Shown piece by piece: positions 15,527 through 33,458 of a DNA stretch of 49,240 nt (within the stretch, counting starts at the first letter, position 1; every line of letters starts with the position of its first letter). Origin of the DNA: Chloroflexota bacterium. GTDB lineage: Bacteria > Chloroflexota > Anaerolineae > Promineifilales > Promineifilaceae. The DNA is taken from positions 1-49,240 of the forward strand of contig JAGNBF010000054.1 in the NCBI GenBank assembly GCA_018004935.1, read 5' to 3'. The notes under the pieces are model-generated. The model was given only the letters and a program-made list of their open reading frames with translations. It was not told the origin of the DNA and searched no databases. The position numbers were made by a program, and so were the translations under genes.

Positions 15527-17113
15527 TTACCACGCGCCATGCCCTTGGAAAACGGCGGGAATGGTTTTGAGGAGGATATGGCAATCAGTCAGCAGACTAT
15601 AATGCTCAATGTACTCTAATTCCAGGCGCACCCGGTCGTTGAGTGAGAGCGCTCCTCGGCCATTGATCTGCATGGGGCCGGTGATGCCGGGGCGTACGGC
15701 CAGCCGCCGTCTTTGCCAATCGTTGTAGCGGGCAACAATGCGGGCTTCTTCAGGACGTGGCCCCACCAGACTCATATCTCCTTTGAGGACATTCCAGAAC
15801 TGGGGGATTTCGTCCAGACTCCAGCGACGTAGGAAACGGCCCAGGCGGGTGACACGAGGATCATCTTTGATTTTAAAAGCGGGTTCGGTTAAGGTGTCCA
15901 GGTCAATCAACTGATCTAGTGCTTCTTCTGCGTTGGGGTGCATGGAACGAAATTTGACCACAGTAAACGGTTTGCCATCCTGGCCGATGCGTTGTTGGCG
16001 AAAGAAGACTGGGCCGCCTTCCACCACACGAATGATCAGGGCGATCAGGAGCATGAGGGGCAGGCTGAGAAGAAAGAGGCATCCTCCCAGGGTGATGTCT
16101 AGAAGGCGTTTAAAGAAGCGATGGTGCCCACTGAGGATGGGTTTTTGTTGGCGGGCCTGCGGCCGCAAGGCTACCGTACCATAGCCATAACTGTATGCCA
16201 GAGCGACGGCCCGCAAAAATAACAGGGGCAGGGCAATCAATAAGACGGGGGCATCTCGTTGGGCCGTTTTGTGCAGAAAAGGGAGACAACTGAGGATAAA
16301 AGCGGTGAGCCAGCCCGCCCACCCAATAGTCAATGGTTGCCACAGCAGGGGAGCCAAAAGCACAAAGGGTAAGAGTAGGGTTAACCCCATCTGTACTTTG
16401 AGCAATTGGGGGGTGCGCGAATCGCTCACCAGGCGTTCCGGGTGGCGGTGCATGAGCATGGCTTTCCACTTGCCGATGGCAAATTTGCGCCAGAAATAGC
16501 GTGTGGCTGAGGTGAGGTGGCGATGATAGACGCGAGCATCGGGGGCAAAGACCATTTTGTACCCTTTGGCGGCCAGACGGAAGGAGAAATCCTGGTCTTC
16601 GACTTCAGGCAGGGAGCGATCAAAACCGCCATTTTCGAGAAAAATATCACGGCGATACGCGGCCGCGTAGGTGTCAATAAAATTTATTTGTGGCTCGCGG
16701 CGCATACGGTCATACCGTTCTTCCACTTCCACCTGGGTGAAGCGGGCCACCAGCTCTTTCTGCCGGGAGAGATAAGCCCCCTTAACCCCCACCACATCAG
16801 GGTCGTCCTGAAAGGGACGAGTCATACACTCAATCCAATCCTGGCGGGGTTCACAGTCGGCATCGGTAAAAAGAATAATTTCGCCATGGGCGGCTTCGGC
16901 TCCGGCATTACGGACGCCAGATTTGCCTAATTTGGCCGGGGTTAGGACCGTGACCCCACTGGCTCGGGCACAAGCGACGGTATCATCGGTTGAAGCATCA
17001 TCCACAACGATAATCTCGACATGAGTGCTGGGAACGGTCTGGTTTTGTAGGGCTTGCACACAGGCGGTGATGGTCTGAGCCGCATTGTAGGCGGGAATTA
17101 CAACAGAGTACAT
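15527..17113 (-). CDS. GT2 glycosyltransferase fused to phosphoglycosyl transferase
   Basis: 528 residues with two catalytic units. Residues 1-~230 are a GT-A family-2 glycosyltransferase: [26 protein letters not shown] (metal-binding DxD-like), and [15 protein letters not shown] (catalytic base region). Hydrophobic helices occupy ~245-320. Residues ~332-528 are a bacterial sugar transferase (WcaJ/monotopic PGT): [51 protein letters not shown] (catalytic Asp-Glu pair) and SLVGPRPE. PGTs start polysaccharide assembly by placing sugar-1-P on undecaprenyl phosphate; fusion to a GT2 suggests one protein adds the first and second sugars, or acts at both ends of assembly. It lies 9 bp after the flippase-like gene. 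Confidence 0.9.
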
Positions 17114-17122
17114 AGTTAGAAT

Positions 17123-18157
17123 TTATTCCCCCGGCGCGTGGGCCGGTGCGTGTGAGGTGGTGTGCATGGTGGAAGAGAGGCTCCCTAACACGACTTGGGG
17201 CACCACCAGGGCCATATGCCAGAGGAAGGCAAAGGTGAGTGCGGCCGCGTCATTGGCTACACCCATCTGTTGAAGTAAAAACACGGTTACCCCTTCAAAC
17301 ACGCCTACTTTAAACGGAGTGGAAGGGGGCACTGAGCCAACGGTTAATAAAACATGCAGTAAAACAGCTTCGCCCAGCCCCAAGGAGAGGTGAACGGCAG
17401 GAAAGAGAACCAGAGGGGTGAAGATGGCTAGTACGGCCAAAATACCGGTCAGGCCGATGAGGCGCAGATTGGTTTTTTGGTAACGTAAGGCATCTAAACC
17501 GCCTAGACCCGTCACGAGCCATTGGTGTAGACGCTGTGCCAGGGCTGAAGGCAAAAAGCGACCGATTTTCTGGTTAAGATAGATGAGCCACTCCCCCTGA
17601 TAAGCCAATAAGTAGAGACCGGCGAGTGAGAGCAGGGTCGCGGCCGCGATGAGCCAGGGTGATCCACCCATAAAAGCCGGTAACAGGGGAAGCACCACCA
17701 GCAATGAGACCCCCAGGGCGGCTACATCTAACGTCTTTTCTACCACAATTGTGCCCAGCGTGCGCGATGCTCCTACATGTGTCCAGCGTTCCAACCGCAC
17801 TAATCGGGCGACATCCCCCAGCCGGAAAGGCAAAATCAGGTTGAGTAACTGCCCAAAGGTGAGAGACCAGAAAACATCCAGGTAAGCGGGGATAATGCCA
17901 GGGGGGTGGAAAGTTAGCCGCCAACGTACGGCTCGGATAACAATCGTCAATACCACCAGGATAACACTGAGTAAAACATAGAACGGGCGAATGGTGGTAA
18001 AGGTGCGACGAACTTCAGCCAGGGGAATGTCACGAGCGACATACCAGAGAACCAGGCCACCCAAGCCGATGCCCAGGAGCAGACGCACCCAGTACCAGAC
18101 GGTGCGGGTGGGTAACGGGGGTAGTTCAGGAATGGATTTTTGACCTTCAGCCATCAT
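17123..18157 (-). CDS. Flippase-like integral membrane protein (LPG synthase TM family)
   Basis: 344 residues, about eight to nine membrane helices, of the UPF0104 / lysylphosphatidylglycerol synthase transmembrane-region family. Characteristic stretches are VRAVRWRLTF near the second helix, FWSLTFGQLLNLILPFRLGDVARLVRLER and GTIVVEKTLDVAALG, then SVPPSTPFKVGVFEGVTVFLLQQ near the C-terminus. Members without the C-terminal aminoacyltransferase domain are often found in glycolipid and polysaccharide loci and are proposed lipid or glycolipid flippases. The ATG at 18157 has no strong ribosome site; the second ATG at 18154 is equivalent. Context with the adjacent GT2-PGT fusion favours a role in undecaprenyl-linked sugar handling. 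Confidence 0.82.
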   Translation of the reverse strand: MMAEGQKSIPELPPLPTRTVWYWVRLLLGIGLGGLVLWYVARDIPLAEVRRTFTTIRPFYVLLSVILVVLTIVIRAVRWRLTFHPPGIIPAYLDVFWSLTFGQLLNLILPFRLGDVARLVRLERWTHVGASRTLGTIVVEKTLDVAALGVSLLVVLPLLPAFMGGSPWLIAAATLLSLAGLYLLAYQGEWLIYLNQKIGRFLPSALAQRLHQWLVTGLGGLDALRYQKTNLRLIGLTGILAVLAIFTPLVLFPAVHLSLGLGEAVLLHVLLTVGSVPPSTPFKVGVFEGVTVFLLQQMGVANDAAALTFAFLWHMALVVPQVVLGSLSSTMHTTSHAPAHAPGE

Positions 18158-18477: not shown

Positions 18478-20667
18478 TTAGGGCCGTATGATAACGGTGC
18501 TGGGATCTCCTAACAGGCCAAAGGTATCTATAATTTCTTGAAGCCAGGGAGCAGAGGAAATGTTGACGGCATTTTGGGCCTCAAGCAGGGCATCCCCCAT
18601 GCGGAGATTGTCTGGATTTTGTAGGGCGTGGATGAGGCTTTGGGCAAATGGTTCCTGGTTATTGGGTAAGGTGAGGCTGGTGGCGGCGATGATCAAGACT
18701 GGCCCGTTTTCATGGCTGAGCATTATTTCGGAGATGGATGGGGTTGTGGGATGAGCAAAGAGGCCAGTGAGGCAGGTGAATTGTAAGACGATGGGGGGAT
18801 GGGCTTGCGGCCGCAGATTTTCCAGGGCTTCCAGGGTTAATACCTGCTCTTTGCCCCACATGTCCAAACTGCCGTGCCCATTGTATGTGACCAACCAGGC
18901 TCCTTCATTCCAGGCCGTTGTGAGAGCGGTTGTTGGTTGGCCGTACAATTTGATCACAGAGGCTTCGGTAAAATTGTTTTGGCTAATCAGGTTATCGGCA
19001 AAGTAGCTAAACTGCTCTTCTGTGCCATCGGCGGTAAAAATAGAAAATGAGCTGGGGGAACTCTGTTCATAGGCCAGGGTACGGGCGACAAGGTTAGCGA
19101 CCACATCAGGATCACTGATGGGCCAACGACCCAAAGCCAGATCGGGCACCCCATCATTGTTCAGATCTGCCAGGCGGGTGTCGCTGACCGTTTCACCACT
19201 GAAGGTGACAGGGATGAGGGTTGTGGGGACGACATCAGGTGGTGTTTGCCCTAGATAGTTGCGGAAATCGGTGCTGACATCTCCTACCAGCAAGAGGTAA
19301 CGAGGTAAGGGGGCTGTCCAGTTCTGGTGGGCGTATTGTAGGAAGGTGCGCAGACTATCTGGTCCCACTTCCCCTGCTCCAAATTCATCGTAGATTTCGG
19401 CAACCGGTACAATGAGGGTATGGATACCCTGACTGTCTCGTGTTTCTTTGAGAGGTTGTAAGGCTGGGGCGAGAGCATCTGTTGTGAGGATGAGGAGATC
19501 GGCCTGGTTGGCCGGGTTGTGCCAATCACTCACCCGCAGGCCACGAATTTCGGCGGGCGACAGGAAGGCGGTAGGGCCGATGGCGGCCAGGCGCATGGTG
19601 GAGGTGAGGGTGAGGGGCACGCGGCCGCGGTCTATCACCTCAGTTGTGATTTGGGCCGGGGCGGATGGCTCGGCAATGTCGAACAAAAGCGGCGCTTCAG
19701 TAAAACCCGAAAGCTCTACTGTGCCGTTTACCGGCTCCATGAGAATGTGATCATTCACCGCTGTGGGGGGTGTCTGGTAAGCCAGTTCTAGCCAGTCCAG
19801 GTACATAATGTCTATAAAGGTGGCTCCAGCAACTTTGTTGTCTAATACGAGAGAATTGTCTCCAGTGACCAGCGTGTTGGCTGGGATAGGGAGGGTGGCG
19901 GTGAAATATTGTTGCCCATCCCAACGGATGGTACCCAGGGGCTGATCGTTGAGCCGAACATCCAGGTCGTGATCTAAATCTACCTGATCGCTATATGTGG
20001 ATCCCCATAAGGTGAGGGTGAGCAAGGCCGGTTGGGTGGGAGTAACCAGGGGCAGGTTAAGGTTTTTTTCCAGGATGGCCTCCACACCGATGGTTTCCCA
20101 GAACCAGATGTCCCCCAGCCAGTTGGTGCGAGCCTGACCCTGGTAGTTATGATTTTCTTCCAGGCGTAGGGTGCGGGTAATGGTGGTGAGGGAGGGAGAA
20201 GCGGGCATGGTCGCGGCCGCGGCGATCATTTCCGTACCCGCTTTCCCCAAACTTAGTACATAGGGCCGTCGGGTAGTGTAGGGGCTGGTAGGAGCCAGTC
20301 CGTAAAAAATGAGACTTTCTGCCTGTAGTCGGTATGGGACAACTTCACCTTGGTGTGTTAGTTGCATATTATTGACCTGCCAATCCGTTGCCGTCATGTC
20401 TAATTCGTCTGCCGTAATTTGATAAAAACCGGTGTACGCAACTTCCAAAACGAAGGCATTTGTGCTGGTGATACCGGCAACCGGCGCTGGGGCTAGCTTG
20501 CGCCAGAGAAGCCAGCCGGTGATGGTGAAGAGGGCCAGCCCTAAGACCAAAAAAAAGGCCACAAGGGGCCAGGGGAAACGAGTAGATTGGGGTAATGGGG
20601 GGGGGGAAGTCACCTCTGACAAGGGTTTCTCATCAGAGGTGACTGTTTGCTCAAGTTCGGATGTCAT
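18478..20667 (-). CDS. Membrane-anchored C25 (gingipain-type) cysteine peptidase
   Basis: 729 residues. A cytoplasmic ~30-residue head precedes one membrane helix (WPLVAFFLVLGLALFTITGWLL, ~34-56), leaving the rest outside. Residues ~70-380 form beta-rich domains. The C25 domain (~390-729) has PRYLLLVGDVS, a DxNxDGxPDLALGRWP calcium-like loop, the catalytic histidine in YNGHGSLDMW (~597) and cysteine in LQFTCLTG (~630). C25 includes gingipains and PorU, the type IX secretion sortase, so proteolysis or transpeptidation are both open. The start overlaps the previous gene by 4 bp (ATGA), implying translational coupling. It shares the fold with the 1132-residue C25 protein upstream. No type IX secretion genes are present. 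Confidence 0.88.
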   Translation of the reverse strand: MTSELEQTVTSDEKPLSEVTSPPPLPQSTRFPWPLVAFFLVLGLALFTITGWLLWRKLAPAPVAGITSTNAFVLEVAYTGFYQITADELDMTATDWQVNNMQLTHQGEVVPYRLQAESLIFYGLAPTSPYTTRRPYVLSLGKAGTEMIAAAATMPASPSLTTITRTLRLEENHNYQGQARTNWLGDIWFWETIGVEAILEKNLNLPLVTPTQPALLTLTLWGSTYSDQVDLDHDLDVRLNDQPLGTIRWDGQQYFTATLPIPANTLVTGDNSLVLDNKVAGATFIDIMYLDWLELAYQTPPTAVNDHILMEPVNGTVELSGFTEAPLLFDIAEPSAPAQITTEVIDRGRVPLTLTSTMRLAAIGPTAFLSPAEIRGLRVSDWHNPANQADLLILTTDALAPALQPLKETRDSQGIHTLIVPVAEIYDEFGAGEVGPDSLRTFLQYAHQNWTAPLPRYLLLVGDVSTDFRNYLGQTPPDVVPTTLIPVTFSGETVSDTRLADLNNDGVPDLALGRWPISDPDVVANLVARTLAYEQSSPSSFSIFTADGTEEQFSYFADNLISQNNFTEASVIKLYGQPTTALTTAWNEGAWLVTYNGHGSLDMWGKEQVLTLEALENLRPQAHPPIVLQFTCLTGLFAHPTTPSISEIMLSHENGPVLIIAATSLTLPNNQEPFAQSLIHALQNPDNLRMGDALLEAQNAVNISSAPWLQEIIDTFGLLGDPSTVIIRP

Positions 20668-21803
20668 TGTGGGCCATTTTGTTTACGGGTGAAGAGCAGA
20701 ATCGTACCGAAGACACCAGCGGCAAAAATGAAGAGGCCAGCAATAAAACCAAGCCAAAGAATGACGCGGCCGCTACCCCCAGTGGTTATCGAAGTTGCCC
20801 CATCAGGGGCCGGTAGCGTGCTGTTGGCTCCGGGTACATTGCTGTCGCCAAAATCTGTTACTCCAGGTGTACTTCTCTGGTAAGGATCAGATAGAGTGGT
20901 TGTAACCTCGATGCTTCCCGGGTTTAGCGGGTTGGATGAAAGGGTGGCTTCTGCACCGGGTATGGGTTGTCCATCGGGATAAACACCACCGGCATCCGGC
21001 GGTGTGTCAGGCAATGTCGGGTCTGTGGTGGGCGCGGCACCGGGATACGCTTCTACTGGGTTGGGTGTTATCTGGGCAATGGGAGTGCCATTGCTTTCAC
21101 TGGTGGCGGCACCCGTTGTTGTAGATGCCCGGGTAGGTATATTGTTGTTGCTCCCCCCCGACACTGGGGTAGGGGAAGGCAAAGTTTGATTATTGCCGCT
21201 AACAGGAGTTGTGGTAGCTAGGGGAACAGGGGTGTTTGTGAGGACTGGGGTGTTGGGAATGACCGGAGTTTGTCCGGGAAGGGTTGTGGCTGTGGGCGTT
21301 GCCGTAGGGGTAAAAGTGGCCGTATTTCCCCCGGTATTGCCTCCACCTATGACTGGTAATGTTGGCGTGGGCGACCCAATTATCCCTGCTACTACGGAAA
21401 TGACATCGAAAGCGATAACCTCATCCAAATCAGCTTCAATTTCGATGAGCATATACCAATAGGTCTGTCCTGGTGTAGCTTGGGTATCGGTAACGATGTA
21501 TTCGGCCCCGGTTTCCAGGCCAGTGGCCTGGATGAAACTGAGTGTTTCGCCCTCATATAAGAGGTCAATAAAATCAAAGGGGCCATCTGCCGAACTGCTA
21601 CGCTTCATGCGGAATCCGGCTGTCTGCACTTCTGAACCGGTTATCCATTCCAGGCTGACGCCCTGGGTAATACCCGTGCCGGTGAAGGAATAAACTTCTA
21701 CATTTTGAGAGCCATGGGCCTGCACGGATGGCCTGATGTTATGAGTCAGCCATAAGGCCAGGGAAAAAGACAGAATAATAAAAACAAAAATACGTTTACG
21801 CAT
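20664..21803 (-). CDS. Secreted Fn3-like protein with Thr/Pro stalk and C-terminal anchor
   Basis: 379 residues. A signal peptide (1-~30, FVFIILSFSLALWL, cut likely after VQA) leads to an Fn3-like domain (~35-140) of the 'LEWxTxSExxxAGFxxxRS...YxxTDxxxxPGxxYWYxL' type; this motif often marks surface proteins and is shared with the small membrane protein at 25934-26422. Residues ~145-335 are a low-complexity Thr/Pro/Gly stalk (TATPTATTLPGQTP, VTNTPVPLATTTPV). A C-terminal helix (VILWLGFIAGLFIFAAGVFG) and RKQNGPQ end anchor it. It lies between the two C25 peptidases, overlaps the second by 4 bp, and could be their partner or substrate. Confidence 0.82.
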   Translation of the reverse strand: MRKRIFVFIILSFSLALWLTHNIRPSVQAHGSQNVEVYSFTGTGITQGVSLEWITGSEVQTAGFRMKRSSSADGPFDFIDLLYEGETLSFIQATGLETGAEYIVTDTQATPGQTYWYMLIEIEADLDEVIAFDVISVVAGIIGSPTPTLPVIGGGNTGGNTATFTPTATPTATTLPGQTPVIPNTPVLTNTPVPLATTTPVSGNNQTLPSPTPVSGGSNNNIPTRASTTTGAATSESNGTPIAQITPNPVEAYPGAAPTTDPTLPDTPPDAGGVYPDGQPIPGAEATLSSNPLNPGSIEVTTTLSDPYQRSTPGVTDFGDSNVPGANSTLPAPDGATSITTGGSGRVILWLGFIAGLFIFAAGVFGTILLFTRKQNGPQ

Positions 21804-21838
21804 GGAGAGCCTTCTGATAGATCGTTCAGATAACCCGA

Positions 21839-22037
21839 TTATTTGTGAAAGACCCAGGGATTGTCGTGCCTTTTTTGTAACTTCTCAATATTTTGCAAAA
21901 ACCGTGGCCTGAGCTTGTCGAAGGCCGTTGGTTTCGACAGGCTCAACCAACGGCACCACATATTATTGAGAAAATACCTTTTTTTGTCTCCATTCCTTGA
22001 GCGGTCATCCTTAGAGCCTGAACGTTTGACCTGGTGG
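21839..22037. repeat. Inverted-repeat element between C25 and Fn3-like genes
   Basis: A near-palindromic block: CTGAGCTTGTCGAAGGCCG (21910 on) faces GGTTTCGACAGGCTCAACC (~21930 on), flanked by TTCTCAATA (~21883) and TATTGAGAA (~21963). The same arrangement, TTCTCAATAAAG...GAGAAGATACC, appears at 33794-33892 and 48627-48723. It interrupts the otherwise tight C25 operon, and may be a mobile REP-like hairpin. Confidence 0.7.
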
Positions 22038-25000
22038 TTATTTTTTGAGCAGTGGTAGGTAGAGACTACTCGTGGGGATGAGAATCTGCACCATGACCGA
22101 ATCATTCTCATTGCCCGGATCCCCCTCCAGACCGGTGCCTGTAACGACAGCCTGATTGGTAAGGTTCACAGGGTTGTTAATAGTTGAAGCCACCAGGGTT
22201 GTTAGCGTAATGGTTGCTGTATCACCAGGGAGAAAGGGTGGTTCCAGGGTGAATGTGATTTGATTTCCAGCTACATCTACCGTATGCGCAACGCTAACCG
22301 AATGAGTGACATAGTTTAACCCTGTTGGTAGGGTATCAACAACTGTCAGATGGGTGGGATAAAGACCGGTATTATTGACGCTTAGGGTAAAGGTAACGGT
22401 AGCACCAGGGGTGGCGCTGGTTTGTTGGGTGGTTAAATCCAGGCTGACGGCTGGGCGGTATAGTTGCAGGGCTGGATCACCGTGCAGAGTGAAGGAGTAG
22501 AGTTCGGAGTAGTGGAGATTTGCCAGGGCGTAATTGAGTTTACCGTAAAGAATGGCATCACCAATGGCTGTGAGGCCTTGATCAAGTAAACCATCATAAA
22601 AGCCATGAGCCAGGTAACTATGTTCAGAGGTGAGGCCAAGGCCGGTAGAAGACCAATGCGCGGCCGCGCCCACGGCTCCAGTTGTCCCTGTTGGTTGCCC
22701 GACGATAGTTTCCCCCAAGCCTTCAAAACCGGGAAAGATGAAATGGGCATCCAGGCAATCCATACTTAGAGCGATGACTGGTCGGCTACTGTTGAACCAG
22801 AAACCGGTAGAGGAAACTTGTAGTAGATCACCCGCCCATTGGTCTATAGAACCGTGACCGCGATAGTTGAGCAAAGTAATCCCCTGATTGTTGATGGCTT
22901 CTTTCATGGCCGCCCGCATGAGGGCGGTAGTTGTATATTGGCCTGTTTCGTTGCCCAGGCACATTTCTTGGGTGGTGAAGGGGGCAGAAATCGCGGCCGC
23001 GGTTGCTTCATTTTCACTACAAAAATCACCTGCATCCGGGTCGAACTCATCCGCCGTAAACAAAATGTTTTCCAGCCAGGCATAATTTGTGGGATCACTT
23101 AAGTAACTGAGATGATTTTGCTCATACTGGATGATTTTGGCTACTGATGTTGTCACCTCACTTAAACTCTGTCCGGCTAACCGACCAATGGCCATATCGG
23201 CCAGATTATCATTTCCCGCTAACAAAACAAATGAATAGTCAGTGGGAATCAGACCCTGGAACCGATCAATGATAAGCATGTCTGTATTGACATAGGAAAT
23301 CTGATTCTCATCCCAATAAGTGGGTGAGCCGTTGCCCACCCAAATGTGACGCACATCGGCACTGGCATCACCTACCAGAAGCACATAACTGGGAGCCACC
23401 TGCCAATTGGCCAGGGCGTGAGCCAGGTAGTTGTGAATAGCGGATGGCGTTTCTAACCCATAGCCATATTGATAGATGATGTCTTGTATATCTACAACAT
23501 GGGTTTGATAAGCGCCATAAAGTGCGGCTTGCCGATGGGTAGCTAACTGATTCACTGCGGGCATGAAATCCGAATGACTGATAGCCAGCCATTCGGCCTG
23601 GTTGTTGGGTGGATTGAGGTTAGGGACTAAATAATTCTCTACCGCGGCCGCGGACAGATTGATGATATTGGCATTGGTGGTGGCAATAAACCGGGCGGTA
23701 CTGGCATGGGTACTGCCAAAAGAGTATGTGTATGGCCCACTGCCGCTAATATTAGCCGCCGTCATGGGGACACGGGTCGGTTGATAAGGATTGCTAATGT
23801 TCCACACCAGCACATTGGCGGCATTATTTTGGCTATACCCCTGAATGCTATATTGGTGTGAGCCACTGTTATGGGTAAAGATGAGTTGATCACTGGTAGC
23901 AATAAATTGCCGTTGGTATTCAATCGTCAGCCGGTTGAGGAGGTAGTTTTTCGTGACAGTTGTTGATGAGCTGTGCGTGCCAATGGTAATCTGGTTTGTG
24001 CCGTTCACCAGGGCACTGGCTGATGCATTCCCCACAACATTCACATTAAGATTGTTTGACCAGGTGTTCGTTCCCTTGTAGGTTGAACCATAAGTGCCGT
24101 AGTTCAGATAACTGTTTATCAGATGGCTGGCCGTGCCCCGAGACAGAATTTCGGTTGTGAAGGTAATGGTGCTACTGGATGTAACCGGGTTAGGTGTATC
24201 AATGGTGTAGGTTTTGGTGATAGGGGTAGTAGATTGCGACCAGAGATCCCAGTACCAGGAATCTGTTTCGTTATAGAACCACAATTCTTGGGGCACAAAG
24301 GTGCTGGTAAAACGATTGTTTTGTTCGTGGGTGATGGTTTCAGGGAAAGAGGCGGCCGTGGGAAACCCGGTTGGGTTATTGATAGTGGTAATGCTGGTGG
24401 CCGTTCCCCCAACCCATAACCAGAAAATATTGTCAGTAACATATTGCTGATCATGCCGGGTTCCATTGAAGGCCCAACCATAGAAACGTACCGCATCATT
24501 GGCAGAATCGAAGTTGCTCGTGCCACCCCGATTGACAAATTCGGTTGCCACCGTTTGACCGTTATAGACCATTTGGATGGTAGCGGGGTTGTAACTGCCC
24601 GACATCCCTAACGTGGCATAGGTAACTTCGTAAATACCATCTTGGCTGAGGGCCAGTTTAAAAGCGACCTGGCCCTCAGGCAAAACGGTGGCTGTGCCGC
24701 CCATATTGGCGGGTAAACTGCGCCATTGGCTGGCCTGAGCGGCATTCAGGGCCAGACCAGCGATTGTTTGCAGGTGATTGTCATGGTAGCCAGGGGCGGG
24801 GTGCAGGTTGCTAAAATCACTCCCTGTAAAGGTAATGTCAACCTCTAAAGCTTCGGTTTGGGTAAGAGTATTTTGTGCGGGATTGTACTGGAATGGGTAA
24901 AGGGAGAGTTTTACCAGACGAATATCACGCACATATTGGGGATCAGAAAGGGTATAGGTAAAGGGCGGATAGGCCGTGTCTGTCTGATAGATCGCTGTTT

Positions 25001-25436
25001 CTGGGGAGAGATCTTCTATGAGTATATTACCAGAGGCCAGGGGGCTATCTGTTGGGGGTAAAGTGGCGCTGGGGGCGGGTTGTAATGTGGGAACGGTGTG
25101 GGTGGTCTGGTTGATGATATGGAGGTTGATGTTCGCGGCCGCGTTTGGGGGTAAAACAATATAGGTACTGTAAAAAGGAATAGCGGGTGCGCCCGGGGTA
25201 CTGGTATAAGCACTCAGGCCGGGTGCCGTCAAAAGACCCTCATCGTCTACCGAAAAAACGGGTGTGTTCAGCGTAAAATGAAGACCCGTCTCGGCCAGAA
25301 CCAAATTCTGTACAGTCGTGCTTTGCCCCCCATCAGCTTGGGGAGAGATAGCAGTGATAGGACCACCTATTCTTGTTCCTAACAGAACAAACAAAAATAA
25401 GAATAACCCTTGACGAAATGATTGATATCTATTCAT
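22038..25436 (-). CDS. Secreted C25 (gingipain-type) peptidase with DUF11 domain
   Basis: 1132 residues. A signal peptide (FRQGLFLFLFVLLG, 1-~28) precedes N-terminal beta domains with the C25 propeptide-like style (EGQVAFKLALSQDGIYEVTYATLG, AVRFYGWAFNGTRHD). The C25 catalytic region has PSYVLLVGDAS, DMAIGRLAG, the histidine in NYRGHGSIDQW (~860) and the cysteine in LSMDCLDAHF (~892). Residues ~1015-1115 form a DUF11-type Ig-like domain (TPGATVTFTLSVNNTG, VVDTLPTGLNYV). The protein ends SLYLPLLKK, a hydrophobic Tyr-Leu-Pro-Leu tail reminiscent of other Chloroflexota secreted proteins. ATG 25436 is chosen over 25460 because GAGG is suitably spaced and the signal peptide is then N-terminal. Confidence 0.88.
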   Translation of the reverse strand: MNRYQSFRQGLFLFLFVLLGTRIGGPITAISPQADGGQSTTVQNLVLAETGLHFTLNTPVFSVDDEGLLTAPGLSAYTSTPGAPAIPFYSTYIVLPPNAAANINLHIINQTTHTVPTLQPAPSATLPPTDSPLASGNILIEDLSPETAIYQTDTAYPPFTYTLSDPQYVRDIRLVKLSLYPFQYNPAQNTLTQTEALEVDITFTGSDFSNLHPAPGYHDNHLQTIAGLALNAAQASQWRSLPANMGGTATVLPEGQVAFKLALSQDGIYEVTYATLGMSGSYNPATIQMVYNGQTVATEFVNRGGTSNFDSANDAVRFYGWAFNGTRHDQQYVTDNIFWLWVGGTATSITTINNPTGFPTAASFPETITHEQNNRFTSTFVPQELWFYNETDSWYWDLWSQSTTPITKTYTIDTPNPVTSSSTITFTTEILSRGTASHLINSYLNYGTYGSTYKGTNTWSNNLNVNVVGNASASALVNGTNQITIGTHSSSTTVTKNYLLNRLTIEYQRQFIATSDQLIFTHNSGSHQYSIQGYSQNNAANVLVWNISNPYQPTRVPMTAANISGSGPYTYSFGSTHASTARFIATTNANIINLSAAAVENYLVPNLNPPNNQAEWLAISHSDFMPAVNQLATHRQAALYGAYQTHVVDIQDIIYQYGYGLETPSAIHNYLAHALANWQVAPSYVLLVGDASADVRHIWVGNGSPTYWDENQISYVNTDMLIIDRFQGLIPTDYSFVLLAGNDNLADMAIGRLAGQSLSEVTTSVAKIIQYEQNHLSYLSDPTNYAWLENILFTADEFDPDAGDFCSENEATAAAISAPFTTQEMCLGNETGQYTTTALMRAAMKEAINNQGITLLNYRGHGSIDQWAGDLLQVSSTGFWFNSSRPVIALSMDCLDAHFIFPGFEGLGETIVGQPTGTTGAVGAAAHWSSTGLGLTSEHSYLAHGFYDGLLDQGLTAIGDAILYGKLNYALANLHYSELYSFTLHGDPALQLYRPAVSLDLTTQQTSATPGATVTFTLSVNNTGLYPTHLTVVDTLPTGLNYVTHSVSVAHTVDVAGNQITFTLEPPFLPGDTATITLTTLVASTINNPVNLTNQAVVTGTGLEGDPGNENDSVMVQILIPTSSLYLPLLKK

Positions 25437-25573
25437 GTGAAACCTCAACGCCCAAATCATGATAAAACTAATCAGATGAAGGTAGTATATTACCTTTGTT
25501 TTGTCTGGTCGTGTGTGGGTAGAGTTCTCTTAAAAACCTGTAACGATTATCCCGTCAACCTGACCATAAACAC

Positions 25574-25656: not shown

Positions 25657-25944
25657 TCAGGGTGAGGGTTCCCATTGAATTAATCCTTTTTGCTGTAGAT
25701 TAGAGAGAAAATTGTTCAGATCAGACGTAGCCTGTTCCGGAGCTACCGCATAATTCTCCATCATTCGCCTTTCGATTTCCTTTACAGAAAGCCCCTCATT
25801 TTGACTGACAAGACCCCACACAAATGTACCAATGGCATTTATGATGACATAATGACCAGTTTCAGGAATGATGAGCACAGTTTCATCATCCAGCGTACGC
25901 CAGATGACACCCGGAAGTGGCTTGATGGTAGTATTAGAATTCAT
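25657..25944 (-). CDS. PqqD-like (RRE-fold) small protein
   Basis: 95 residues from ATG 25944 (MNSNTTIKP). The sequence PGVIWRTLDDETVLIIPETGHYVIINAIGTFVWGLV followed by a winged-helix-like SVKEIERRMMENYAVAPEQATSDLNNFLSNLQQKGLI is the PqqD family pattern, written here as two adjacent segments. PqqD binds precursor peptides in PQQ and other RiPP pathways. No radical SAM enzyme or precursor peptide gene is visible nearby; PqqD-like proteins are also common in exopolysaccharide loci, where their job is unclear. The ATG lies 11 bp inside the upstream membrane-protein gene, so expression is coupled. A longer reading to 26010 merely covers that gene's end. No GCGGCCGC octamer. Confidence 0.78.
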   Translation of the reverse strand: MNSNTTIKPLPGVIWRTLDDETVLIIPETGHYVIINAIGTFVWGLVSQNEGLSVKEIERRMMENYAVAPEQATSDLNNFLSNLQQKGLIQWEPSP

Positions 25945-26422
25945 ACTCTTTTTTAGTGTAGAGACTACTACTGAGAAGTAAGAGACCAACCAAAGTGCTG
26001 AGAGGTACAATGACGATGGCCCACCACTCTAACCGACGGAAGGAACCTGATATAGGTTCATCAGGATCGGCGTCGTAGATATTAGTACTGCCATCTAACT
26101 CGACTTCTTCCAGACGATAATAATAGACAAGACCCGCTTCGACAGTTTCATCGGTGTAGGTGTATTCGCTCCCGGCAAAGGCATCCTGGGCACTAAGAAT
26201 CATCGTGTCGTTGACGCGGACATATTCGCCGGTGGCCGTTTCACTCCGATAGATGTTATAACCAGCGGTCTCAAACTCTGATTCAGTTTGCCACACGATT
26301 TGGATTTGTGGCTGGCGCACAAGTTGGGTAATAAGGATCGCGGCCGCGAGAGCTAACCATAGTAAGCCCAAACCGATCAGCACGCGCCGATCCCTCGGTT
26401 GTTTTTTGGCGACCCCACTCAT
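25934..26422 (-). CDS. Two-helix membrane protein with extracellular Fn3-like domain
   Basis: 162 residues. An N-terminal helix (VLIGLGLLWLALAAAILITQL, ~14-35) and a C-terminal helix (WWAIVIVPLSTLVGLLLLSSS, ~131-151) enclose an outside Fn3-like domain: IVWQTESEFETAGYNIYRS, EYTYTDETVEAGLVYYYRLEEVELDG. This is the same domain type as in the 20664-21803 protein. The ATG shares one base with the stop of the upstream BY-kinase gene, and the PqqD-like gene starts inside its 3' end, so the three are a tight operon. It may present the domain near the polysaccharide export complex; function unknown. Confidence 0.8.
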   Translation of the reverse strand: MSGVAKKQPRDRRVLIGLGLLWLALAAAILITQLVRQPQIQIVWQTESEFETAGYNIYRSETATGEYVRVNDTMILSAQDAFAGSEYTYTDETVEAGLVYYYRLEEVELDGSTNIYDADPDEPISGSFRRLEWWAIVIVPLSTLVGLLLLSSSLYTKKEYEF

Positions 26423-28035
26423 TAACGTTTACTCAAACTAGAAATCCAACTTGATAAACTCCAACCCCGGCGGTTATTGCGACGACTGGAATAATCATAA
26501 GAATAGTAGCGATAGTAGTAATAATCATAGTAACCAGTGCGGCCGCTACGCAATTGATTCATCACCACCCCCAATAAATGAGCGCCACTCTTTTCCAACC
26601 GTTCCGCCGCGTCTACCAGGGCATCCATGCGCGTCTTGCCCCCTTCAACAACCAACACACAGCCATCTACCTGCGGTGCCAGAATAGATGCATCGGCCAC
26701 CGTAAGTGTAGGCGGAGAGTCAAAAACTAAAATATCAAACTGCTCTTTCAACTCCTCAAGAACTTTACCCATACGTTGAGAGTTTAAGAGTTCCGCAGGG
26801 TTTGGGGGAATGGGACCACTGGTCATCACACTCAAACCAGAGATCTTGCTGATCTGCACATGATTGATAACCGGTGTGGCCGCATCTAACAGAGCCGTGG
26901 TCAGACCATGATTATTGGGTGTAGCAAAAATCTTGTGTTGCATAGGGCGACGTAAGTCCGCGTCTACAATGCAGATCTGTTTGCCCGTTTGCGCTAACAC
27001 CACTGCCAGGTTAGCCGTGGTTGTGGATTTCCCTTCAGAGGGGGACGAACTGGTTACTAAAATGGCTTTTAAATCCCCATCCACAGCCGCAAAATTTAAA
27101 TTGGTACGTAGCACCCGGTATGCTTCAGAGACAGGGGCACGTGGGGTATGGACGGTGATGAGGCGATCATTCGGGTTACTCCCTTTGATGAAAGCAATAG
27201 CGCCCAAAGTAGAAAGTGCGGTTACTTCGGCCACCTGTTCGGGATTTTTGACCGTATCATCCAGATAATCAATGAGAAAAATGACACCAAGTGCCAGAAG
27301 TGCCCCAATCGTAACCGCCAGAACGGTATTGGTTTCTGGTCGGGGGCGTATGGGGCTGGTGTTGACAATTGCACTCTGAAAAATCTCAATTTTGTTGGTT
27401 TCTCGAGCTTGAGAAATACGTAAGGCTTCCAGGTCGTTGAAATTTTGATTGTGTTGAACTTCAATCTCGCGCAATTGGGTTTCTAAACGGGCCAGGGCCG
27501 CCTGCCCTTCTGCCGTTTGCGGTTCCCCTAACTCCGTCACCTGAATCATGACATTTTCGCGCTCATCCCGTAATAGATCCAGAGAGGTTTCGTAGCGTGC
27601 AATGGAAGCGGCATAACGACTTGTTTCACGTTGCTGATTCTTTTCAATAAAAACTTCCCCTACCATATTAGCGATGTTAGCGGCATCTGCGGGGGCATTG
27701 GCTTCTACCTGAATGTCAATGATTTGCGTCCCTTCTGGGCTAGAAACAGTAATGTTAACCGCACCCAATGATTCTCGGCCCAACCGGCTGGCGACTTCTT
27801 GCAACACATCGCGTGATCTGATCACCTGTAAATAGGTGGCAATAAGCCGTTGTTCCAGGTCAATCTGGCTGACGGTGGCTCCTGGTGCGGCGTCCACAAT
27901 CAGACGGGCACTGGCACTATATACTTTGGGACTGTTGATGCTGACGATATAGGTAATCCCGCCAGCGACAATGGCACTTAGGATTATCAGCCATAGCCAT
28001 TGGCGTACGAGTGCCAGATAATGTTTAATTTCCAT
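26422..28035 (-). CDS. Wzz/BY-kinase: polysaccharide chain-length regulator fused to tyrosine autokinase
   Basis: 537 residues. N-terminal Wzz domain with helices at ~12-32 and ~235-256 flanking an outside coiled coil (SIARYETSLDLLRDERENV, ARLETQLREIEVQHNQNF). The cytoplasmic kinase domain (~285-510) has Walker A SSPSEGKSTTTANLA, Walker A' ICIVDADLRRPMQHKIF and Walker B ILVFDSPPTLTVADA, the three BY-kinase marks. The tail has an exceptional tyrosine cluster (YYDYYYYRYYSYDY) followed by basic RRNNRRGW, where autophosphorylation would occur. It regulates chain length and export of capsule/EPS in relatives. GGAG precedes ATG 28035. Operon with the small membrane gene upstream and the Fn3-like and PqqD-like genes downstream. 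Confidence 0.93.
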   Translation of the reverse strand: MEIKHYLALVRQWLWLIILSAIVAGGITYIVSINSPKVYSASARLIVDAAPGATVSQIDLEQRLIATYLQVIRSRDVLQEVASRLGRESLGAVNITVSSPEGTQIIDIQVEANAPADAANIANMVGEVFIEKNQQRETSRYAASIARYETSLDLLRDERENVMIQVTELGEPQTAEGQAALARLETQLREIEVQHNQNFNDLEALRISQARETNKIEIFQSAIVNTSPIRPRPETNTVLAVTIGALLALGVIFLIDYLDDTVKNPEQVAEVTALSTLGAIAFIKGSNPNDRLITVHTPRAPVSEAYRVLRTNLNFAAVDGDLKAILVTSSSPSEGKSTTTANLAVVLAQTGKQICIVDADLRRPMQHKIFATPNNHGLTTALLDAATPVINHVQISKISGLSVMTSGPIPPNPAELLNSQRMGKVLEELKEQFDILVFDSPPTLTVADASILAPQVDGCVLVVEGGKTRMDALVDAAERLEKSGAHLLGVVMNQLRSGRTGYYDYYYYRYYSYDYSSRRNNRRGWSLSSWISSLSKR

Positions 28036-28036
28036 A

Positions 28037-28318
28037 TTATTGATGACTCCTTACTGGTCGCCATTTTTTGAGCAGATTTAACAAACTGATCAAAAGTAAA
28101 ATAATCCAGATGATGGCTTCCCATAGAGTGTTACTGGTTCCTACCAGACCGAGGGTGATAAGGGTGAGGCCAAGCCATAGCAGACGGATGAAGGGGGTGG
28201 TGTTTAGTTGTGCACGTAAGGGAAGATTTTTTTGGTTCGCCTGCCACTGATGATAGCTGAATGCGGCCAGAATGATCGCTAATCCCCCAATCCAGACAAT
28301 ATGAAACAGCAAGGACAT
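28037..28318 (-). CDS. Small hydrophobic membrane protein
   Basis: 93 residues from ATG 28318 (MSLLFHIVW). Three hydrophobic segments: IVWIGGLAIILAAFSY, FIRLLWLGLTLITLGLVG and LWEAIIWIILLLISLLNLL, ending in a basic KKWRPVRSHQ. No family recognised. A longer start at 28363 (108 residues) is possible, but a perfect TATAAT on the minus strand lies inside that extension, favouring the shorter form. It is one base upstream of the BY-kinase gene and likely the first gene of that operon, so a role in polysaccharide export or regulation is a guess from position. No GCGGCCGC octamer. Confidence 0.65.
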   Translation of the reverse strand: MSLLFHIVWIGGLAIILAAFSYHQWQANQKNLPLRAQLNTTPFIRLLWLGLTLITLGLVGTSNTLWEAIIWIILLLISLLNLLKKWRPVRSHQ

Positions 28319-28337
28319 CCAGTCTATCACGGCAGAG

Positions 28338-28366
28338 ATTATAGCATAGGCTATAATTGTCACAAT
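28338..28366 (-). promoter_or_regulatory. Candidate promoter of the EPS/BY-kinase operon
   Basis: On the minus strand TTGTGA (about 28360-28365) and a perfect TATAAT (28338-28343) are separated by 16 bases. This would start transcription near 28331, just before the small membrane gene. The assignment rests on consensus match only. Confidence 0.4.
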
Positions 28367-30303: not shown

Positions 30304-31674
30304 TTATCCGCCGATGGAGTCCAGGGCAATTTGGGCGGGGTAGAAGTTGGCGTTAAGTTCTAGAGCACGTTGGTAGGCGGCACGAGCCTGAATGATGTCA
30401 CCCAGGAAGGCGAAGGCGTGACCGCGATAGAGATACGTTTCTTCCACATAGGTGGAGCCATCCCGCACCCGTGGGTCAGAGTTGCTGAGCATGGCGTCGG
30501 TCAGGCTGACCATGTCCTGGTAACGACCGATTTTCATGTAGGCGATGTAGGTGCGGAACTGATACCAGAGCATCCGGCCCGGTACACCTACAGCAAAAGC
30601 GCGATCAAACGCGGCCGCGCCCTGTTGGTAAAACGCATTATCCCCTGTTATTTCCCCCATTGCCGTAATGCTCGTGCCTAGATTAAACCAGGCAAACGCA
30701 TCTTCACTGTCGGCTTCGCTTTCTTCCTGGGCTTTCAGAGCCGCCTGTTGCCACATGGTTAAGGGGTCGGCCATGTCTGGCCCGACAATTTGTTGGACCA
30801 GGGCCTCTTGCTCGGGCCGGTAAATGGCGATGAAGGTGTAGTTGAATGCCTTCCAACCTTCCAAAATGTCCGTATAGGAGTCCATGCGGCTGGTGCCATC
30901 AAAGGGGCCGAGGTAGGTGTCTTTGCTAAAAAAGACCAGCCCTTCATCATCATAACCATGAACGGTGAGATAATGGCCGTACCAGCCTTCGCCACGACCG
31001 GGGTCATACCCCTTTTCAATGATGACAGGGATGCCATTCGCGACAAATTGTTTTAGTAAGTTCAGGTCGCCCCCCACGTATACATCAGCCTGAATACCGG
31101 GAATGAATTCATTCACATAATCGGCCATTTGCCAGGGGCTAACGTTACGGTCTTGAAGATTGGGTTTCAGGTACGCGGCCGCGTCTGCCTGGGTAATTGC
31201 CTGACCATAAAAATTAAGCACCATCGTCATATTTGTGGGGCCACAATTGTTGAAATTTTGCGGTTCGACTACCAACCCATCAATTGTAAAGGCAGAGGGT
31301 GGGGGTGGTAGAGTGGGAACAGCCGTTGGGGATGGTGTAGGACTGGGTTCCTGGGTAGCGGTGGGAGCGGTGGCCGCAGTTGTCACCGAGGGGGGGGTGG
31401 CAGTGGGTTGGGTAGTAGGGGTTGGTGTTGTTGAGGGTAATACAGGAATGACAACCTCGGCCAGGCTGGCGCCGCTTAGGGGAGCACTGATGGTCGGATA
31501 GGGGGTCGAAACGAGTTCCATCACTTCAGCGGCCAGGACACTACGCTCAGCGAGGACATCTTTGTAGGTGGTGGGAATGGCTTCTACTACTTTGGGCAGG
31601 GCCAAAAAACCAATGATGGCTATGAGTTGTAACATGGCAATGGCAATGATGATTCGTTTGGTGGATGTTTTCAT
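30304..31674 (-). CDS. Stalked C39-family peptidase with TPR repeats (1)
   Basis: 456 residues. An N-terminal signal/anchor helix (IIIAIAMLQLIAIIGFLAL, ~8-26) and a Thr/Pro-rich stalk (~75-120) lead to a papain-like C39 (peptidase_C39_2) domain: catalytic cysteine in NFNNCGPTNMTMVLNFYG (~143), histidine in GHYLTVHGYDD (~234), and the acid likely in FFSKDTYLGP. The C-terminal ~165 residues are TPR-like (FAWFNLGTSITAMG, YRGHAFAFLGDIIQARAAYQRALELN). C39 enzymes trim Gly-Gly leader peptides in bacteriocin exporters, but the anchored, TPR-bearing form is separate and of unknown substrate. ~40% visually similar to its neighbour, so a duplication. Two GCGGCCGC sites. Confidence 0.85.
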   Translation of the reverse strand: MKTSTKRIIIAIAMLQLIAIIGFLALPKVVEAIPTTYKDVLAERSVLAAEVMELVSTPYPTISAPLSGASLAEVVIPVLPSTTPTPTTQPTATPPSVTTAATAPTATQEPSPTPSPTAVPTLPPPPSAFTIDGLVVEPQNFNNCGPTNMTMVLNFYGQAITQADAAAYLKPNLQDRNVSPWQMADYVNEFIPGIQADVYVGGDLNLLKQFVANGIPVIIEKGYDPGRGEGWYGHYLTVHGYDDEGLVFFSKDTYLGPFDGTSRMDSYTDILEGWKAFNYTFIAIYRPEQEALVQQIVGPDMADPLTMWQQAALKAQEESEADSEDAFAWFNLGTSITAMGEITGDNAFYQQGAAAFDRAFAVGVPGRMLWYQFRTYIAYMKIGRYQDMVSLTDAMLSNSDPRVRDGSTYVEETYLYRGHAFAFLGDIIQARAAYQRALELNANFYPAQIALDSIGG

Positions 31675-31888: not shown

Positions 31889-33199
31889 CTAGTTCAATTG
31901 GGCCAGGGCTTCAACGGCGGGAGTAAATTGAGGGTTAAACGCGGCCGCTTTTTCTAGATCTGTGCGTGCCGAAATAAGGTCTCCCAGAGCCTGTTCTGCT
32001 ATCCCCCGATAATATAATGCTTCTTCAAAGTAGTCATATGTTTGCAGGGTAGCATTGGTGAGGGTGATGACATCTTCATAGCGGCCCATCTGGTAGTAGG
32101 CTTCATAAGGGCCAAACTGGTACCAGAGCATCCGCCATGGTAAGCCGATTGCCCGTGCCTGGTCGTAGGCCGCGGCCGCACGCACATAATCGCCCAGGTG
32201 ATTGTAAGCCGTGCCCATATTGAACCAGTAAAAGGCGTTTTCCGGGGTGTTGGTGGCCTCATTTTGTGAGCGTACCAGGGCATTTTGCCACATTAGCGTA
32301 TCATCCCATTCCGCCCCGATGATTGCCTGAAGGGTGCTTTCCTGCTCCTGAGAATACAAAGTAATGTATGTACGGTTGAACTGTGCCCAATAATTCTCCA
32401 GGTTTTCGTAGGTGACAATCCGGCCAAAGGAATGTTTATTTTCTAGGGGCACTTCACTGGTACCAAACCAGGAGTCATATACCCAGATTTGCCCCTGAGC
32501 ATCGTCATAGGCTACCACTAGCAGGTAGTGGCCATACCATTCTAACCAGGCATACTCACCCGGCGGGTCCAAACCGATTTCGATGATGACGGGGAAACCC
32601 GCATCGAGCAGGCGGCGCAGGGTATCCAGATTGCCGTTGACCCGATCGATTGCCCGAATGTCTGTTTGAGTGTTGACATAGGCGGCCATTTCATTGGGGC
32701 TGACGTTGCGATCTTCTTGGCTGGGTTTTAAAATGGCGGCCGTTTCTGTTTGATTGGGGGCCAGACCAAAATAGGAGAGGGTCATGGCCAGAGTCGCCGG
32801 ACCACAGTTGTTCCAATCCTGAAACTGGTGGTAGATGCCTTCCAGACGGGCGTTGCCGATGATGGGGATGGGCGGTGTGGTGGCTGTGGGGATAGGCGTG
32901 CTGGTAGGGATAGGGGTTGGGGTGGCGGGTGGCCCTCCGGTTGCCCGCACAACAGGAGTCGGCAGGCTGGTGGGGATGGTGGTAGGGGCCAGGAGCGCGG
33001 CCGCGTCTGAGGGTGCGGCCGCGGTGGGTAAAATCGGATTTTGCTCCCCACGGGCAATTTCCTGAATGAAGTCTGGCGCACGGAACAGGTAACGGCTGGG
33101 AATGGTACGTAAAAGGGCCGGTAACTGCCAGATAAAAAGCAGTATCAGGATAAATATAATTGCCAGTGAAACAACCGGCCGTCTTTTTTGACGTCGCAT
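31889..33199 (-). CDS. Stalked C39-family peptidase with TPR repeats (2)
   Basis: 436 residues from ATG 33199 (MRRQKRRPVV), with AGGGAAG upstream; a longer reading to 33322 has no support. Anchor helix (VVSLAIIFILILLFIWQLPAL, ~9-29), then a Pro/Thr-rich stalk (PTPIPTSTPIPTATTPP), a C39 domain with catalytic cysteine in DWNNCGPATLAMTLSYFG (~130) and histidine in GHYLLVVAYDD (~223), and TPR-like repeats at the end (FYWFNMGTAYNHLGDYVRAAAAY; YYRGIAEQALGDLISARTDLEKA, quoted in part). Same order of domains as the downstream paralogue, and the same RNVSPxxMAxYVN segment. Likely outside the cell and membrane-tethered. Four GCGGCCGC sites, two only ten bases apart in the stalk. Confidence 0.85.
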   Translation of the reverse strand: MRRQKRRPVVSLAIIFILILLFIWQLPALLRTIPSRYLFRAPDFIQEIARGEQNPILPTAAAPSDAAALLAPTTIPTSLPTPVVRATGGPPATPTPIPTSTPIPTATTPPIPIIGNARLEGIYHQFQDWNNCGPATLAMTLSYFGLAPNQTETAAILKPSQEDRNVSPNEMAAYVNTQTDIRAIDRVNGNLDTLRRLLDAGFPVIIEIGLDPPGEYAWLEWYGHYLLVVAYDDAQGQIWVYDSWFGTSEVPLENKHSFGRIVTYENLENYWAQFNRTYITLYSQEQESTLQAIIGAEWDDTLMWQNALVRSQNEATNTPENAFYWFNMGTAYNHLGDYVRAAAAYDQARAIGLPWRMLWYQFGPYEAYYQMGRYEDVITLTNATLQTYDYFEEALYYRGIAEQALGDLISARTDLEKAAAFNPQFTPAVEALAQLN

Positions 33200-33458
33200 A
33201 ACTTCCCTTTGGGCAAGAGGCTTGAAATTGTGCTCCCCTAAGCGCAAGAGGAGATTATAACGGGGGAATTCGTGAGGCGTGTCTACAGATGGTGTCAACC
33301 CCCTGAAACCCTGAAGACCCATTATAACGAATTGAATATGTCTGCCAACGATAGGGTGGAAGGGTTAACCACTTTCTTAGACCTGATTCAGGCGGGTTGG
33401 GTCATGGGTGTATCTTTATCTCTTCTTCATCACCTTCAGGATTGACGATTAAATATAC

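Follow-up and report, generated by a model that had tools for sequence, protein, structure and literature searches.

A conserved pair of PorU-like C25 peptidases in Chloroflexota and its co-occurrence with the YLP-box, a C-terminal tag on secreted proteins

The locus described here lies in a 49,240-nucleotide stretch of DNA (hereafter the window) from a Chloroflexota bacterium of the family Promineifilaceae, and its genes between positions 15527 and 28363 are read from the minus strand. Three of them form its core. The first encodes a long C25 peptidase (22038-25460), 1140 amino acids in length if the first ATG is the start and 1132 if the start is the ATG at 25436; the protein runs from a signal peptide through a gingipain-type propeptide, a PorU-like region, the C25 domain (22461-23588) and DUF11 to a C-terminal tag, YLPLLKK, encoded at the extreme end of the gene (22041-22061). 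The second is a stalk protein of 379 amino acids (20664-21803), recognised as an open reading frame with homologues that adjoin C25 pairs in relatives, in which a signal peptide is followed by an Fn3-like domain, a Pro/Thr-rich linker, a C-terminal transmembrane (TM) segment and a basic tail. The third, supported by Pfam, its open reading frame, alignment and a structure model, is a short C25 peptidase of 729 amino acids (18478-20667) with an N-terminal TM segment, PorU-like N-terminal domains and a C25 domain (18496-19494). The start of the short C25 gene overlaps the stop of the stalk gene by 4 bp (ATGA). A preliminary description of this DNA, made from its letters alone, had already recognised two C25 peptidases bracketing an Fn3-like stalk protein and the overlap between the last two genes, all of which stands, with both catalytic dyads intact; it made no mention of the YLPLLKK end of the long C25. 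The interval between the long C25 and stalk genes (21805-22037) holds an intergenic inverted repeat (TTGAGCCTGTCGAAACCAACGGCCTTCGACAAGCTCAGG) that appears MITE-like by eye.

On the upstream side, these genes are preceded by those for a PqqD-family protein of 95 amino acids (25657-25944; PF05402, E=4e-16), an Fn3-like membrane protein of 162 amino acids (25934-26422), a Wzz/BY-kinase fusion recognised by its Pfam domains and combining polysaccharide co-polymerase with tyrosine autokinase (26422-28035), and a small membrane protein of 108 amino acids (28037-28363) whose place by radA is kept in relatives. The 162-residue protein, with one Fn3-like domain and TM segments on either side, is thus a second Fn3-like protein besides the stalk, placed between BY-kinase and PqqD. 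Downstream lie a flippase-like LPG_synthase_TM protein of 344 amino acids (17123-18157; E=3e-36) and a GT2 domain fused to a polyprenyl glycosylphosphotransferase (PGT) of the WbaP/EPS class, 528 amino acids long (15527-17113; Bac_transf E=7e-67). Pfam therefore bears out the exopolysaccharide (EPS) neighbourhood named in the preliminary description, namely BY-kinase/Wzz, PqqD-like protein, GT2-PGT fusion and flippase-like protein; of the parts of a Wzx/Wzy-type EPS system, the PGT, Wzz/BY-kinase and flippase-like proteins are present in the window and no polymerase was recognised there. Beside radA are two adjacent membrane-anchored C39-like peptidase/TPR proteins (30304-31674 and 31889-33322).

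Both enzymes pass the curated cut-off of PF01364 by a wide margin (220 and 215 bits against 23; E=6e-65 and 2e-63) with catalytic His and Cys in place, and so belong to peptidase family C25. The dyad of the long enzyme, H869/C902, is invariant in an alignment with 27 long relatives, and that of the short one, H598/C632, in an alignment with 19 short relatives, several of which have a lipobox-like N-terminus resembling a lipoprotein signal. In the long C25, Pfam also finds Propeptide_C25 (4e-16) and DUF11 (9e-11). Profile comparison places the enzymes nearer to PorU than to the gingipains, in support of the comparison with PorU drawn earlier: the short C25 profile matches PorU (PDB code 6za2) at E=8e-49 over nearly its whole length, with gingipains weaker, while the long C25 profile gives E=5e-66 for PorU and 1e-34 for gingipain R, and matches gingipain pro-domains as well. 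The same is seen at the level of fold: as modelled by AlphaFold2 (pLDDT 86), the short C25 has PorU for its best PDB match (Foldseek E=9e-30), with the gingipains behind. However, scores of 166 and 182 bits against NF033707, the NCBIfam model for PorU, fall far under its cut-off of 420, so that the enzymes are PorU-like and not PorU.

The Fn3-like domain was modelled confidently as an Ig/Fn3 sandwich, but its best matches among Fn3 structures are modest (E about 3e-3 to 5e-3) and Pfam gives no match to it; the Fn3-like label is based on this modest structural match. At two loci (L029 and L030), the stalk is fused to an S24/S26-like peptidase domain.

C25 genes are present in 32 of 39 relatives, and twenty regions were read for comparison of the locus. 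The gene order of the window, which we call type 1, is found again in about ten genomes from this family, sometimes cut by contig ends: small membrane protein, Wzz/BY-kinase, Fn3-like protein, PqqD and long C25, followed by stalk, short C25, flippase and GT2-PGT. Several examples continue beyond the GT2-PGT gene with a TMEM260-like GT-C protein, DUF4012 and an SH3 protein. The gene set is therefore shared among relatives, a check that had been proposed. A second, paralogous C25 pair in the same genome (contig C218) has the type 2 order, comprising Fn3-like, HprK-like, PqqD, radical SAM/SPASM, small peptide, long C25, S26-like, stalk and short C25, and no EPS genes; type 2 was also found in genome G007 and, in part, in G011, and L029 mixes elements of both types. 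The C25 genes of three genomes, G147, G139 and G194, which are probably Chloroflexus aurantiacus, Herpetosiphon aurantiacus and Roseiflexus RS-1, respectively, likewise have no EPS neighbours, as is mostly the case for other C25 genes in the phylum. EPS genes are consequently one setting among others, and in many of the family's C25-bearing genomes the C25 pair and its stalk are kept together, in two different settings.

The small peptides encoded between the radical SAM and long C25 genes of type 2 loci (L008:12651-12800; L017:14728-14946, minus strand; L023:1009-1167; L117:11532-11711, minus strand) share a conserved pattern, Y-E/V-KP ... LE-S/A ... A-G/S-x-C, and are likely RiPP precursors; the L008 peptide has no NCBIfam match.

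The long C25s read first in relatives almost all end, like that of the window, in an aromatic-L-P-hydrophobic motif. In a census of 95 C25 proteins, sorted by eye into long and short types, the strict ending [YF]-L-P-h-h-x-[RK] was present in 47 of 59 long-type Chloroflexota enzymes, with about six more nearly conforming, and in none of 27 short C25s, three giant gingipain-like proteins or six C25s from other phyla; three short C25s that end in IVRP... had been flagged automatically, but these were regex artefacts and were discounted by eye. The proline does not vary across 27 aligned long C25s. Since the linkers ahead of the tag differ (DUF11, P/T-rich or none), it is the tag itself that is conserved.

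The tag also ends many unrelated secreted proteins, so that a common C-terminal motif, whose absence was to have counted against the preliminary hypothesis, is indeed present. The consensus of 98 unique tagged proteins, of which 58 are other than C25, is [VIL][YF]LP[LVIM][IVL]x[RK]-COOH, and 71 of the 98 end exactly four residues past the proline; no TM segment or common upstream domain was found in this set. Among the cargo are a GH9 cellulase, proteins with DUF11 repeats, and propellers of RCC1 and lyase type. A DNA pattern for the tag has 25 matches in the window's own genome against 12 for the reversed control, and a narrower TAY...TRA pattern nine against two, all nine at the ends of long open frames; of the matches checked in other C25-positive genomes, 21 of 23 likewise end long open frames. 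Large tagged proteins adjoin C25 genes in several loci (L101, L107, L108, L114 and L117), often with a stalk-type Fn3-like domain. The ones at L110:13286-17440, L108:12300-14669, L114:11241-16913 and L117:1283-7207, all beside C25 genes, carry such a domain at the end, followed by the tag.

The motif is not new. NCBIfam lists NF050076 and NF053834 under the one name 'YLP-box putative sorting motif-containing protein', and these two models match tagged proteins of the present set: the C-termini of a long C25 (L020) and a secreted protein (L128) match both, and that of a further long C25 (L016) matches NF053834, each of the three reaching one or more of the curated cut-offs. The YLPLLKK end in the window fits the motif yet matches neither model at E<=1. 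Because the YLP-box is listed there, the tag was already catalogued, and its treatment as a new motif has been withdrawn; what the present analysis adds is the link to C25. A literature search found no paper naming an enzyme or machinery for the YLP-box or treating Chloroflexota C25 peptidases, although a curated or published link between the two may already exist. The C25 enzymes offer a concrete candidate.

Across 161 genomes sampled from the phylum, C25-positive genomes being those with E<=1e-35 and the reversed pattern serving as control, all 24 C25-positive genomes had motif matches (121 in total against 25 for the control), compared with 27 of 137 C25-negative genomes (36 against 44, no enrichment). 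The corresponding Fisher value is 9e-15, and at least three matches were found in 19 C25-positive genomes but in one C25-negative genome (p=4e-19); these and the following p-values are descriptive, since the E-value cut-offs, motif pattern and log transform were chosen after the tag had been seen in the family. A sample of 150 genomes from the class, meant to lessen the problem of shared ancestry and not fully independent of the first since some genomes are common to both, gave 400 matches against 71 for C25-positive and 64 against 40 for C25-negative genomes (Mann-Whitney 5e-6), a weaker link than in the phylum. Permutation within families having both C25 states, with the same aim, gave p=6e-4; three families (f12, f91 and f93) show the opposite trend or none, and 22 of 98 C25-positive genomes of the class lack any match to the narrow pattern. 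The distribution of the motif thus follows that of C25 across the phylum without strict one-to-one dependence, the latter being ruled out by five genomes with real tagged proteins in which no C25 was found: G021 (11 of 12 matches real; 83% complete), G178 (both of two matches real; 99% complete) and three from the class sample, G283, G260 and G287. In other C25-negative genomes (G153, G109, G186, G192 and G195) the matches belong to short frames, 7-86 codons long.

Two competing enzyme families, LPXTG sortases and exosortases, were compared with the tag. Sortase (PF04203) is present in 109 of the 161 genomes, 86 of them C25-negative and so in a group showing no tag enrichment, while one genome (G196) has tag matches and no sortase; exosortase (PF09721) occurs in 10 of 161 genomes, one of them C25-positive, and was not found in the window's own genome. 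Neither distribution follows that of the tag, and both were rejected as the tag enzyme. In the Herpetosiphon-like genome G139 a sortase gene (L113:6479-7387) does directly adjoin the C25 gene, an arrangement that coordinates also indicate for G067, G075, G099, G107 and G131.

The most likely reading, to which we give a probability of about 0.5, is sortase-type, PorU-like processing of the C-termini of YLP-box proteins, outside type IX secretion. In Porphyromonas gingivalis, a sortase-like reaction cleaves the cargo of type IX secretion and couples the C-terminus so formed to A-LPS (PMC4560394); PorU is the implicated sortase, and enzymes of the gingipain family serve as transpeptidases (PMC7468200). 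On the present reading, both C25 peptidases together with the stalk would form an extracytoplasmic unit processing secreted proteins that end in a YLP-box, and the conserved trio may recognise a tag of the ...YLPLVxR type. The long C25, which is itself tagged, as PorU bears the type IX C-terminal domain (CTD), would be secreted; the short one would be held at the membrane by its TM segment or a lipid anchor, with the TM-anchored stalk as a putative scaffold or docking subunit. Cleavage by the C25 active site would fall at the tag or immediately before it, and the new C-terminus would be passed to a surface acceptor by sortase-like transpeptidation. At type 1 loci that acceptor could be a glycolipid or polysaccharide of the adjoining BY-kinase/PGT/flippase genes.

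The resemblance to PorU thus extends from the C25 fold, His/Cys dyad and similar N-terminal architecture to an enzyme that bears the C-terminal signal itself and a cargo of many secreted proteins. The differences are a cargo signal of about 8 residues with variable upstream sequence, where that of the PorU system is a CTD of roughly 80 residues; the presence of two C25 enzymes and a stalk; and the LPS acceptor, which is not expected in Chloroflexota. These organisms are not known to have LPS. The SprA/Sov translocon (PF14349) was not found in the window's own genome, in a search in which no control genome gave a match either. The gingipains RgpB and Kgp share the C25 domain, and their type of propeptide is present in the long C25; however, they match less well than PorU, the short C25 has no propeptide of this type, and the EPS or radical SAM loci and stalk partner set the present enzymes apart. 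LPXTG and exosortase/PEP-CTERM systems similarly mark many exported proteins with a dedicated C-terminal signal, and exosortases are frequent in EPS loci, but in those systems a TM segment and a basic tail follow the motif, whereas the tag here ends the protein and has no TM segment behind it. The YLP-box models describe the identical tag, while their model lines name no enzyme. More tentatively still, the Chloroflexota C25s might represent a second PorU-like sortase lineage, independent of type IX secretion, that reads a TM-free tag of some 8 residues and attaches dozens of secreted proteins to a surface glycan other than LPS.

The chief competitor to C-terminal processing by the C25 pair holds that the C25s are ordinary secreted proteases, engaged in degradation or maturation of exoproteins, and are themselves cargo of a YLP-box anchoring carried out by another enzyme or by non-covalent binding. 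The gingipain-type propeptide of the long C25, its being tagged like other cargo and the genomes with tagged proteins and no detectable C25 are consistent with this explanation, which we nevertheless consider rather unlikely: tag and C25 co-occur across the phylum and within families, the profile resembles PorU and not the gingipains, the pairing with a membrane-held C25 and a stalk is conserved, and the tag shows no trend with sortase or exosortase.

The preliminary description had gone further, with a separate system linking surface proteins to the polysaccharide made by the same locus. A shared tag and gene set agree with a separate system for surface proteins; the EPS linkage, in contrast, is rejected as a general rule by the paralogous pair on C218 and by the C25 genes of other families, including the probable Chloroflexus, Roseiflexus and Herpetosiphon, that lie apart from EPS genes. 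The occurrence of C25 genes in relatives without EPS genes had been named in that description as grounds for refuting it. As the specific role of the pair in the window it is improbable, despite the conservation within the family of the type 1 order, TMEM260-like GT-C and DUF4012 included, and despite the precedent of P. gingivalis, where cells that lose the PGT WbaP no longer have A-LPS and release their CTD proteins (PMC4560394). Least probable is a RiPP-like maturation, with PqqD, radical SAM and S26-like proteins preparing a small precursor, C25 removing its leader and the EPS setting secondary, since the PqqD, radical SAM/SPASM, HprK-like and S26-like genes and conserved peptide of type 2 loci have to be set against type 1 loci without radical SAM or a recognisable precursor and Chloroflexus- and Roseiflexus-like C25s that have neither.

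Were sortase-type processing by C25 correct, the PorU-type reaction would be tied neither to type IX secretion nor to LPS, and many Chloroflexota cellulases and adhesins would be covalently bound to the surface. With the candidate present in genomes that are probably Chloroflexus, Roseiflexus and Herpetosiphon, the question can be put to the test.

A further feature of the window is the abundance of the NotI octamer GCGGCCGC, which occurs 76 times in positions 1-49240 (for example at 589, 1098, 22660 and 25135) against a mean of 0.93 and a maximum of 4 in the shuffled window. In 461,617 bp of its own genome there are 720 copies, compared with 36 expected from an order-3 Markov model, and each of eight 17-20 kb stretches from relatives has 0-2; the octamer is a HIP1-like highly iterated palindrome.
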